A stretch of 64,000 nt of DNA from Actinomadura rubteroloni. GTDB taxonomy: Bacteria; Actinomycetota; Actinomycetes; Streptosporangiales; Streptosporangiaceae. The stretch spans positions 248,001-312,000 of the forward strand of contig NZ_MTBP01000002.1 in NCBI RefSeq assembly GCF_002911665.1, written 5' to 3'. The notes below the pieces were generated by a model, which ran no database searches, was not told where the DNA came from, and saw only the letters and a program-made list of their open reading frames with translations. The position numbers and the translations under genes were made by a program. Below, in pieces: positions 43,491 through 46,584 of the stretch (the first letter of the stretch is position 1; each line of letters opens with the position of its first letter).

Positions 43491-44111
43491 TCAGTCCGCC
43501 GCCGGACCGGATCCGCCGTCCTGGCCCGACCCCTTCGACGCGCCCGCCACCACGGCCTCCGCGACCGCCCGCATCGTCAGCCGGCGGTCCATCGACGTCT
43601 TCTGGATCCACCGGAACGCCTCCGGCTCCGTCCAGCCGTGCGCCTCCTGCAGGAGCCCCTTGGCACGGTCGACGACCTTGCGCGTCTCCAGCCGGTCCGA
43701 AAGCCCCGCGACCTCCGCCTCCAGCGCCCGCAGCTCGGTGTAGCGGCTCACCGCCACCTCGATCGCCGGCGTCAGGTCCGTCTTGCTGAACGGCTTGACG
43801 AGATAGGCCATCGCGCCCGCGTCCGTCGCCCGCTGCACCAGCTCCCGCTGCGAGAACGCCGTGAGGATGACGACGGGGGCGATCCGGTCCGCGGAGATGC
43901 GCTCGGCGGCGGAGATGCCGTCCAGAACGGGCATCTTGACGTCGAGGATCACCAGGTCGGGGCGGTGCTCGGCGGCCAGCCGGACGGCCGTCTCACCGTC
44001 CCCCGCCTCGCCCACGACCTCGTACCCGTCCTCCTGGAGCATCTCCTTGAGGTCCAGCCGGATGAGGGCCTCGTCTTCTGCGATCACAACTCGCCGAGCG
44101 GTCTCCGTCAC
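43491..44111 (-). CDS. pdtaR: ANTAR-domain response regulator PdtaR
   Basis: RNA-binding antiterminator response regulator, 206 residues, matching Mycobacterium PdtaR (Rv1626) in size. The receiver domain has AEDEALIRLDL, phosphoacceptor VILDVKMPVLDG, ILTAFS and the lysine of YLVKPFSK. The C-terminal ANTAR domain (about residues 130-190) contains RKVVDRAKGLLQ and EAFRWIQKTSM. Its partner kinase PdtaS is not in the window. The GTG start at 44111 gives the conserved TETARRVVIAEDEAL beginning. In mycobacteria PdtaS/PdtaR respond to nutrients and nitric oxide. Confidence 0.93.
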   Translation of the reverse strand: MTETARRVVIAEDEALIRLDLKEMLQEDGYEVVGEAGDGETAVRLAAEHRPDLVILDVKMPVLDGISAAERISADRIAPVVILTAFSQRELVQRATDAGAMAYLVKPFSKTDLTPAIEVAVSRYTELRALEAEVAGLSDRLETRKVVDRAKGLLQEAHGWTEPEAFRWIQKTSMDRRLTMRAVAEAVVAGASKGSGQDGGSGPAAD

Positions 44112-44210: not shown

Positions 44211-44285
44211 GCCCCGATAGCCCAATAGGCAGCAGGCGATGGTCTCAAAAGCCATAAAGTGTGGGTTCGAGTCCCACTCGGGGCA
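44211..44285 (+). tRNA. tRNA with anticodon CAA (Leu codon UUG) but class-I short variable loop
   Basis: A full cloverleaf can be folded by hand: 7-bp acceptor (GCCCCGA with TCGGGGC), D-arm closed by GCC/GGC, anticodon stem ATGGT/GCCAT with loop CTCAAAA (anticodon CAA at 44246-44248), five-base variable region AAAGT, T-arm GTGGG-TTCGAGT-CCCAC, discriminator A at 44285. No CCA is encoded. Leucine tRNAs normally have a long variable arm; this one does not. The D-loop AATAGGCAG and A73 do look leucine-like. It may be a true but unusual tRNA-Leu or an altered copy. Confidence 0.8.
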
Positions 44286-44291
44286 CATTTC

Positions 44292-44328
44292 GACAAAACC
44301 TCCACCATTCCAGTGGGCGGTTTTTGTC
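44292..44328 (+). terminator. Intrinsic terminator after the tRNA gene
   Basis: GACAAAACC and GGTTTTTGTC, plus CCAC/GTGG, form a long hairpin around a short loop, with TTTTT in the 3' arm. It lies seven bases after the tRNA and 26 bases before the HTH-LAGLIDADG start. The A-rich 5' arm means that it could also act on the opposite strand. Confidence 0.7.
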
Positions 44329-44353
44329 ATACCCGACTGCGACGATCGCGGGC

Positions 44354-45112
44354 ATGTACGATCCGCGACAACGCCCCCTCGCCCTCCGGCTGCTCCGTGA
44401 GGGCTTCTCCCTCGCAGAGATCAATCACCAAACCGGCATTTCACGGCAGACGCTCTACAACTGGAAGAAAGATCCAGAGAAGGCCGCCGCACGCGTGGTG
44501 CCCGCCTGCCCCAGATGCCACGAGCGGGCGCTCGATCGACCCGCCTACTCCTACCTGCTCGGGCTGTACCTCGGGGACGGCCACATCGCCAACGCGCCCA
44601 AGCCGGGGATCTACCGCATGGAGATCGCGTGCGCGAACAGTTGGCCCGGCCTGAGCGAGGAGGCCGCGCACGCGCTCGCCGTCGTCATGCCCGGCCAGAA
44701 GATCGGCCGCAGGGCGAGCATCGGCTGCACCAACATCGGCGCCTACTCCAAGCACTGGCCGTGCATCTTCCCTCAGCATGGACCGGGCATGAAGCACACG
44801 CGCAAAATAACGCTCTCCGAATGGCAGCAGGAGATCGTGGACGAGTGCACCGGAAAGTTCGTTCGGGGTCTGATCCATTCGGACGGCTGTCGCGCGATGA
44901 ACCGCATCAAGCATGTCCGGAATGGCGAGACGGTCTGGTACGAGTATCCCCGGTACTTCTTCACGAACGCGTCCGACGACATCCGCACGCTGTACACCGA
45001 CGCGCTTGACCGGCTCGGGATCGCCTGGAAACAGAGCAACGCCCGGAACATCTCGGTCGCACGAAGGGACGCGGTGGCTCGGCTGGACGCGTTCGTCGGG
45101 CCGAAGTACTGA
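44354..45112 (+). CDS. HTH plus LAGLIDADG-type endonuclease-like protein next to the tRNA
   Basis: A 252-residue protein. Residues 12-37 form a resolvase/transposase-like helix-turn-helix (EGFSLAEINHQTGISRQTLY). A CPRC motif follows at 52-55. Two LAGLIDADG-like motifs are visible: YLLGLYLGDGH (67-77) and FVRGLIHSDGC (169-179), each ending in an acidic residue as needed for metal-dependent cleavage. Family resemblance is to free-standing homing endonucleases that are frequent in actinobacteria from memory, often described only as HTH proteins. It starts 68 bases after the tRNA. Codon use includes more A/T third bases than neighbours (for example AAA, ATA, AAT), suggesting transfer. Endonuclease activity and target site are inferred. 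Confidence 0.75.
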   Translation: MYDPRQRPLALRLLREGFSLAEINHQTGISRQTLYNWKKDPEKAAARVVPACPRCHERALDRPAYSYLLGLYLGDGHIANAPKPGIYRMEIACANSWPGLSEEAAHALAVVMPGQKIGRRASIGCTNIGAYSKHWPCIFPQHGPGMKHTRKITLSEWQQEIVDECTGKFVRGLIHSDGCRAMNRIKHVRNGETVWYEYPRYFFTNASDDIRTLYTDALDRLGIAWKQSNARNISVARRDAVARLDAFVGPKY

Positions 45113-45150: not shown

Positions 45151-46584
45151 TCAGTCCAGGGCGATGGCGTCGCCGATTCGGTGGACGCGCAGGGCGTTGG
45201 TGGAGCCGGGGGTCCCGGGCGGGGAGCCCGCGACGACGACCACGCGGTCGCCCTTCTGGTAGCGGCCGATCTCCAACAGCGCCTGCTCGACCTGGCGCAC
45301 CATCTCGTCGGTGTGGTTGACCTCCGGGACGATGAAGGTCTCGACGCCCCAGACGTGCGCGAGGCGGCCCCGGATCGCCGGGACGGACGTGAACGCCAGC
45401 AGCGGGATCGGCGAGCGGTAGCGGGAGAGGCGGCGGGCCGTCTCGCCGGACATCGTGAACGCGACGAGGGCCTGCGCGCCGACGGTGGCGCCGACCTCGG
45501 CCGCCGCGCGGGCGATGGCGCCGCCGACGGTCTCGGGGATGCGGTTGAGGGTGTGGGTGGCGTGGAGGGTGGATTCCTCGGCGGTGCAGACGATGCGGCT
45601 CATGGTCTCGACGGCGAGGATCGGGTACTGGCCGACGCTGGTCTCGCCGGAGAGCATGACGGCGTCGGCGCCCTCGAAGACGGCGTTGGCGACGTCGGAG
45701 GTCTCGGCGCGGGTGGGCCGGGGCGAGGAGATCATGGATTCGAGCATCTGGGTCGCGACGATGACCGGACGGGCCTTCTCGCGGCAGAGTTCGATCGCGC
45801 GCTTCTGGACGATCGGGACCTGTTCGAGGGGCAGTTCGACGCCGAGGTCGCCCCGGGCGACCATGATCCCGTCGAAGGCGGCGACGATCTCGGGGAGGGC
45901 GTCGACGGCCTGCGGCTTCTCGATCTTGCCGATGAGGGGGACGCGGAGGCCCTCCTCTTCCATGATCTGGTAGCAGATGTCGGCGTCGCCGGGCGTCCGG
46001 ACGAACGAGAGCGCGACGAGGTCGACGCCGAGGCGCAGCGCCCAGCGCAGGTCCTCCTCGTCCTTCTCGGTGAGGGCGGGGACGCTGACGGGGACGCCGG
46101 GGAGGTTGAGGCCCTTGTTGTCGGAGACCATGCCGCCGACGGTGACGGTGGTGTGGACGCGGGGGCCGTCGACGTCGGTCACCTCGAGGGCGACGCGGCC
46201 GTCGTCGATGAGGACGGTGTCGCCGGGGCCGACGTCGCCGGGGAGGCCGGTGTAGGTGGTGGAGACCTGCTTGCGGGTGCCGGGGACGTCCTCGGTGGTG
46301 ATGGTGAACGCGTCGCCGAGGGTGAGGCGCACGGGGCCGTCGGGGAACCGGCCGATGCGGATCTTGGGGCCCTGGAGGTCGGCCAGGATGCCGACGCCGC
46401 GCCCGGCGGCGGCCGAGGCGGCGCGGAGGCGGTGGTAGACCTCTTCGTGCGCGGCGTGGTCGCCGTGGCTCATGTTGAGGCGGGCGACGTCGACGCCCGC
46501 GTCGACGAGGGCGCGGATCTGCTCGGCGCTGGAGCAGGCGGGGCCGATGGTGCTGACGATCTTCGCTCGACGGGTCACGGACAC
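45151..46584 (-). CDS. pyk: Pyruvate kinase
   Basis: Glycolytic enzyme that converts phosphoenolpyruvate and ADP to pyruvate and ATP. The 477-residue protein is full length: TRRAKIVSTIGPA at the N-terminus, VARLNMSHG, the signature VPLIGKIEKPQA with the catalytic lysine, MVARGDLGVELP, and MLSGETSVGQYP. The C-terminal allosteric domain ends in GSTNALRVHRIG. GTG 46584 is used; an in-frame GTG at 46578 is equally good. The upstream 120 bases (46585-46707) are relatively A/T-rich and hold the promoter. Confidence 0.98.
   Translation of the reverse strand: MSVTRRAKIVSTIGPACSSAEQIRALVDAGVDVARLNMSHGDHAAHEEVYHRLRAASAAAGRGVGILADLQGPKIRIGRFPDGPVRLTLGDAFTITTEDVPGTRKQVSTTYTGLPGDVGPGDTVLIDDGRVALEVTDVDGPRVHTTVTVGGMVSDNKGLNLPGVPVSVPALTEKDEEDLRWALRLGVDLVALSFVRTPGDADICYQIMEEEGLRVPLIGKIEKPQAVDALPEIVAAFDGIMVARGDLGVELPLEQVPIVQKRAIELCREKARPVIVATQMLESMISSPRPTRAETSDVANAVFEGADAVMLSGETSVGQYPILAVETMSRIVCTAEESTLHATHTLNRIPETVGGAIARAAAEVGATVGAQALVAFTMSGETARRLSRYRSPIPLLAFTSVPAIRGRLAHVWGVETFIVPEVNHTDEMVRQVEQALLEIGRYQKGDRVVVVAGSPPGTPGSTNALRVHRIGDAIALD

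Follow-up and report, generated by a model that had tools for sequence, protein, structure and literature searches.

How does it come about that one leucine tRNA gene, belonging to a kind of gene that ranks among the most conserved, differs by about a quarter of its bases within a genus, and that these differences track a nuclease family encoded next to it? The question arises from a locus of Actinomadura rubteroloni, in which a gene for a protein with a helix-turn-helix (HTH) and a double LAGLIDADG motif, here called HL, follows a tRNA-Leu(CAA) gene. All positions given without a locus or genome prefix refer to the window, i.e., the whole stretch of DNA analysed (64,000 nt). Our preferred reading, which we hold with a probability of roughly two in three, is that HL acts as a LAGLIDADG homing endonuclease of the free-standing (intronless) type, with the neighbouring tRNA-Leu gene as its target and its own divergent tRNA allele as its shield. 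No description of an HL-tRNA-Leu system was found in the open literature, the scope of the search being papers accessible without subscription.

The locus in Actinomadura rubteroloni

The tRNA-Leu(CAA) gene lies on the + strand at 44211-44286 according to ARAGORN, or at 44211-44285 according to Rfam RF00005 (60.8 bits), and is of type I, i.e., it has a short variable loop. The start codon of HL (44354..45112, + strand, 252 aa by ORF call) follows after a gap of 67-68 nt, depending on which of the two tRNA ends is taken, in agreement with the 68 bases given in an earlier note on this DNA. On the 3' side of the tRNA, both the sequence and the alignment with A. rayongensis (L001/L003) display a hairpin, GACAAAACCtCCAC...GTGGgCGGTTTTTGTC (44292..44328, + strand), which is probably the terminator of tRNA-Leu(CAA); its right half falls within the stretch that is common to A. 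rayongensis after the tRNA swap described below. A YTGTCR box (TTGTCA, 44324..44329, + strand), recognised by motif comparison upstream of relatives, is situated 30 nt 5' of the HL start. Such a box is found upstream of HL in 21 of 65 relatives, 26-32 nt before the start codon, compared to 0.6% in shuffled upstream sequence, and may represent an operator or a promoter element of a leaderless transcript.

Two conserved genes flank the element and lie outside it, a pdtaR-like ANTAR response regulator on the left (43491..44111, - strand) and pyk, coding for pyruvate kinase, on the right (45151..46584, - strand). The GC3 of HL is 0.857 versus 0.92-0.98 in five neighbour genes, and the codon use of HL is therefore indeed less GC-biased than that of its neighbours, as had been claimed. 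The HL ORF is complete, running from its own start codon to its own stop codon, and the adjacent tRNA is likewise complete, so that the gene is located outside any intron or intein. A reading of HL as an intron-encoded nuclease is ruled out, as an Rfam scan of the 64-kb window revealed no intron or other RNA element.

According to the genome-wide tRNA list, the tRNA-Leu(CAA) of this locus is apparently the sole CAA tRNA of the genome. Type II leucine tRNAs cover UAG, CAG and GAG only, and the list contains no long-arm tRNA for UUA or UUG. Both tRNA-Leu(UAA) and one extra tRNA-Leu(CAG) of this genome also possess short variable loops (G000:C1:2161391-2161466, C2:1394152-1394224 and C2:1005811-1005884; L089, L093 and L091). 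Elsewhere in the genome, a tight array of four tRNAs (Trp, Ala, Arg, Met; G000:C1:664191-664536, L088) is odd in comparison with the genome's other copies, and perhaps derives from a phage or mobile element.

Structure and conservation of the HL protein

The N-terminal HTH and the two LAGLIDADG motifs that had been described for this gene are both recovered. The HTH (residues 6-40, 44369..44473, + strand) is matched by Pfam HTH_23 and HTH_29 and forms helices in the AlphaFold2 model; the HTH_23 match (E 1e-4) lies under the family cut-off, and we regard the domain as real, though its Pfam signal is weak. The linker between HTH and nuclease contains a CxxC pair, C52-C55 (44507..44518, + strand), of which C52 is present in 106 and C55 in 100 of 113 relatives. 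LAGLIDADG motif 1 (LLGLYLGDG, helix 62-75, 44537..44581, + strand) bears an Asp at the catalytic position (D75, 44576-44578), and motif 2 (FVRGLIHSDG, 44849..44887, + strand) bears the Asp D177 (44882-44884). Between the repeats runs the signature PQHGPGxKH (residues 140-148, 44771..44797, + strand), which extends to PQHGPGxKHxR in the family alignment. The window HL matches LAGLIDADG_3 with 19.7 bits against a cut-off of 22.5, and 15 of 17 relatives match this family. Conservation of the acidic residues, on which the earlier note had made its interpretation depend, is complete: D75 and D177 are both kept in all 113 intact relatives of the family alignment.

The AlphaFold2 model (pLDDT 88.5) displays the two-copy alpha-beta-beta-alpha-beta-beta-alpha fold, which together with the two acidic motifs and the PDB matches places HL in the LAGLIDADG superfamily. 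In the PDB the model matches I-Tsp061I, I-AniI, I-DmoI and I-SceI with E-values of 1e-7 to 1e-5, and likewise the bI3 maturase; the match to WhiA (8dy9) is weaker (Foldseek E 9e-6). As NG86 dN/dS values computed for close HL pairs are about 0.1-0.3, we consider HL to be under purifying selection. The retained active residues and the modelled fold lead us to interpret HL as a predicted nuclease. A comparison of protein P0001 with phage and plasmid records yielded no match.

The HTH domain and the purifying selection, along with the linkage to tRNA-Leu, would also fit a domesticated protein that regulates or processes tRNA-Leu and whose co-adaptation with the tRNA is the reason for their joint transfer. 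WhiA provides a precedent, being a LAGLIDADG-derived regulator of similar fold. The invariance of the active-site Asp argues against this possibility, to which we return below.

Distribution of HL beside leucine tRNA genes

Adjacency was counted in 81 loci fetched through HL itself, 80 of which have a tRNA in the fetched stretch, while the single locus without tRNA is a contig end. In 79 of these 80 loci the nearest tRNA to HL is a tRNA-Leu (CAA 69, UAG 6, UAA 3, the latter on phage contigs, and CAG 1). The co-occurrence that the earlier note proposed to check is thus persistent, and the gene is not found mostly away from such tRNAs. In the remaining case, an HL relative outside the class (L422:1336-2202) directly follows a tRNA-Trp(CCA).

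Three arrangements of HL and tRNA are observed: the tRNA followed by HL on the same strand, a divergent orientation, and HL followed by the tRNA. In Streptosporangiales-like, Streptomyces and Nocardioides-like genomes (f1, f18 and f26), the order of genes is mostly pdtaR, tRNA, HL, pyk. HL of Micromonosporaceae-like genomes (f19) is divergent and lies on the pdtaR side, and in mycobacteria-like genomes (f4) it adjoins tRNA-Leu(UAG) at a different locus. Because several anticodons, arrangements, genomic places and also phages are involved, the pairing of HL and tRNA-Leu is not an accident of vertical linkage at one place. The family-level HL tree tracks the hosts (8 changes, with a minimum of 7), which implies that long-range spread is rare and that exchange happens mostly within families.

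Three viral contigs from IMG/VR (L424:2221-3059, L425:216-1068 and L426:2723-3561) carry an HL relative a few bases 3' of a phage tRNA-Leu(UAA), in two of the three within a phage tRNA cluster. Two diverged HL genes stand in tandem after one tRNA-Leu(CAA) at L031 (G189:C7:148260-149908) and L024 (G171:C1:600544-602189), as if a second element had landed next to the first.

The tRNA might alternatively be an attachment site, with its variants left behind by integrating phages or ICEs, and Cluster J mycobacteriophages do integrate into a mycobacterial tRNA-Leu gene (PMC3706429). However, no integrase, att repeat or cargo was noticed at the pdtaR-pyk loci examined, and the tRNAs compared here differ over their entire body, while integration replaces the 3' part. 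We give this explanation hardly any credence.

Resident tRNA, gain and decay of HL

Inspection of relatives without HL, which the earlier note had recommended, demonstrates that tRNA-Leu(CAA) still resides between pdtaR and pyk and is consequently no cargo of HL. The presence of the tRNA at the same place rules out that HL carries an additional tRNA. From the earlier idea of a selfish module with its own tRNA, the persistent pairing and the selfish-like behaviour can be retained, but not the extra tRNA; what travels with HL is an allele. The CAA tRNA is listed once per genome in six Streptomyces (PMC4932002). All of the 106 Streptomyces loci possess the tRNA; 66 of them have an intact HL, 23 a broken one and 17 none. 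In simple loci, no gene other than HL was seen between tRNA and pyk. At distant empty sites the intergenic DNA is too diverged for the exact HL insertion junction to be placed.

In Streptomyces, the type of the tRNA shows no association with the presence of HL. This, together with the occurrence of type I tRNAs in HL-free families, rules out that HL causes the type I tRNA.

The state of HL in Streptomyces also bears on the domesticated regulator that the earlier note had offered as its second option. A gene that is broken or absent at 40 of 106 loci, intact in only 66, while the tRNA stays, hardly behaves like a partner of that tRNA; furthermore, tRNA type has been swapped without a change of HL (L001/L003), and HL alleles reassort against the flanking genes. 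We therefore judge a regulatory or processing role improbable and continue with the reading of HL as a homing endonuclease.

Variability of the adjacent tRNA

The mean pairwise difference of tRNA-Leu(CAA) in Streptomyces is 0.259 where HL is intact and 0.237 where it has been lost. Similar values are obtained for f1 (0.242), for the f19 genus with HL (0.231) and for f26 with HL (0.206). Without HL, the difference amounts to 0.020 in f17 (22 genomes) and 0.051 in f19 genera (13 genomes). In Streptomyces, tRNA-Leu(GAG) is represented by one sequence (0.003 including trimming noise), and tRNA-Leu(CAG) differs by 0.022. The mycobacteria have their HL site at tRNA-Leu(UAG), which differs by 0.108 among the 30 best matches, the lowest identity with the query overall being 74%; these loci were fetched by tRNA similarity, so that their diversity is underestimated and their HL frequency describes a non-random sample. 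Mycobacterial tRNA-Leu(CAA), where no HL is present, is not variable (0.027). In the HL-free f17, a tRNA-Leu(UAG) query matched CAG, Arg or merely short T-arm pieces.

Changes in tRNA-Leu(CAA) are mostly located in the D arm and the anticodon arm and are visibly paired, and the TCAAA core of the anticodon loop is kept. We interpret this as an indication that the variant tRNAs are still functional. Our guess is that the variable stretch of D and anticodon arm corresponds to the recognition site of HL.

The concentration of variation in these two arms, with its compensatory pairs, would also be compatible with HL acting on the RNA of tRNA-Leu, as a tRNase or toxin to which the adjacent divergent tRNA is the resistant version. 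tRNAs that evade nucleases in this way are known from conflicts between phages and their hosts (PMC13096335). On the other hand, no PADLOC defence model matches HL, and it is replacement of alleles at the DNA level that is seen. LAGLIDADG nucleases are known to act as DNases or RNA-splicing maturases and are not known as tRNases, which likewise counts against this explanation, and we consider it very improbable.

Relaxed constraint combined with ordinary recombination provides another explanation of the variability. In this case the tRNAs for the rare leucine codons UUG and CUA would drift fast in GC-rich genomes, the pdtaR-pyk gap would be a recombination hotspot, and HL would be a harmless passenger. 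In Streptomyces, tRNA-Leu(UAG) varies (0.189, 11 of 12 sequences being distinct) and has no HL in its vicinity of 1.5 kb (L379-L388, L398, L400), while the commoner-codon tRNAs (GAG, CAG) are invariant or nearly so. The former observation contradicts 'HL only where the tRNA varies' as an absolute rule; this tRNA may be a past or trans target of HL, or rare-codon tRNAs may drift. However, tRNA-Leu(CAA) is nearly invariant in the HL-free f17 and f19 genera despite a Streptomyces-like G+C content of the fetched stretches (0.68, 0.69, 0.68), and drift by point mutation cannot convert a type II body into type I between conserved edges. It also leaves unexplained why HL adjoins tRNA-Leu genes at further loci, in different arrangements and also in phages, and why the active-site residues are invariant. 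We regard relaxed constraint as unlikely, and homing by HL as the better account of the pattern.

Exchange of tRNA and HL alleles as one island

Streptomyces HLs split into clade A (34) and clade B (32), and this division is scattered over the phylogeny of the flanking genes: the clade labels require 18 changes on the pyk tree (17.5 if shuffled) and 22 on the pdtaR tree (22.2 if shuffled). Mantel correlations in Streptomyces are 0.53 between pyk and pdtaR, 0.03 between pyk and HL, and 0.34 (p 0.001) between tRNA and HL. Type II tRNAs accompany 24 of the 34 clade-A HLs, ten adjoining type I tRNAs, and none of the 32 clade-B HLs (Fisher 2e-10, relatedness ignored). With relatedness removed by means of the pyk tree, 6.8 of 9 independent pairs agree with a tRNA type that follows the HL clade and 0 show the reverse (median p 0.016).

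Comparison of close species (pairs L014/L027, L223/L224, L237/L239 and L182/L184) reveals the extent of the exchanged segment. Identity is about 95-100% until about 100 nt before the tRNA, falls to 40-65% over the tRNA and the initial two thirds of HL, and is again about 95-100% in pyk. These patterns show that tRNA and HL alleles travel together in Streptomyces, independent of the outer flanks.

In Actinomadura the tRNA alone was swapped. HL and pyk of A. rayongensis (L003) are 93% and 99% identical to those of the window (L001), yet the tRNA is type II versus type I, with breakpoints at the 5' end of the tRNA and inside the terminator hairpin. Since HLs of 93% identity stand beside different tRNA types, immunity cannot hang on one particular tRNA body.

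Proposed mechanism and implications

Intronless homing with co-conversion is, in our view, the mechanism best supported by these genome comparisons. HL DNA would enter a cell by horizontal transfer, and HL would cut the tRNA-Leu locus of the recipient, a target and an activity that we infer. The break would be repaired from the incoming DNA via the conserved pdtaR and pyk flanks, which would account for the exchange recorded in the comparisons, and the recipient tRNA, with or without any HL, would be replaced by donor tRNA plus HL. The donor tRNA, diverged in sequence and having the same anticodon and cloverleaf pairing, would restore UUG decoding, and would presumably be spared by its own HL. 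HL may then decay or be lost while the tRNA stays, as seen among the Streptomyces loci, and repeated rounds may have rendered this tRNA hypervariable.

The data suggest that a selfish nuclease is behind the unusually rapid change of a gene whose kind is normally very stable. We see an even chance that this constitutes a natural home-and-rescue drive in bacterial chromosomes, in which a LAGLIDADG nuclease destroys the only gene whose tRNA reads a given leucine codon and provides a divergent, resistant tRNA with the same anticodon, a core tRNA gene being re-invented many times in the process, even with switches between a short and a long variable arm. Should HL cut tRNA-Leu genes, it would be a chromosomal and natural counterpart of engineered rescue drives, would explain why actinobacteria have a mosaic of leucine tRNAs with short and with long arms, and would offer HTH-LAGLIDADG nucleases of new specificity. 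The system also makes testable how an apparently single-copy tRNA gene can be replaced without losing decoding.

Comparison with known systems

The closest known case is SegB of phages T4/T6, a free-standing GIY-YIG homing endonuclease in a tRNA gene cluster, which cuts within tRNA genes (PMC2988022, PMC13096335). HL resembles SegB in being free-standing and located beside tRNA genes. By its cutting, SegB favours the inheritance of its own tRNA region at the expense of the corresponding region of a related phage, and HL may do likewise at its own locus. However, SegB belongs to the GIY-YIG family and acts in a phage genome on a dispensable tRNA cluster, whereas HL combines an HTH with LAGLIDADG, is chromosomal, and adjoins what is apparently the single tRNA for a codon. 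Diversification of alleles across a class of bacteria is not described for SegB in PMC2988022 and PMC13096335.

Intronless homing by SegF and SegG of T4 and by mobE parallels the mechanism proposed for HL, as a free-standing endonuclease lies beside its target gene, the nearby target allele is exchanged, and resistance results from divergence of the target. Their targets are phage protein genes, though, and the nucleases are of other families. With I-Tsp061I, I-AniI and I-DmoI, HL shares the two-repeat alpha-beta-beta-alpha-beta-beta-alpha fold and one acidic residue per motif. Those enzymes are intron-encoded, while HL is free-standing and possesses the N-terminal HTH, the CxxC linker and PQHGPGxKH.

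WhiA, an actinobacterial regulator, resembles HL in joining a LAGLIDADG domain to an HTH. WhiA has a C-terminal HTH and has lost the nuclease residues; HL, by contrast, has its HTH at the N-terminus and both Asp invariant.

Synthetic 'home-and-rescue' and 'cleave-and-rescue' drives, engineered in eukaryotes, couple a nuclease with a recoded version of its essential target gene that resists cleavage. The HL locus differs from these drives in that it occurs naturally and the role of rescue gene would fall to a tRNA.
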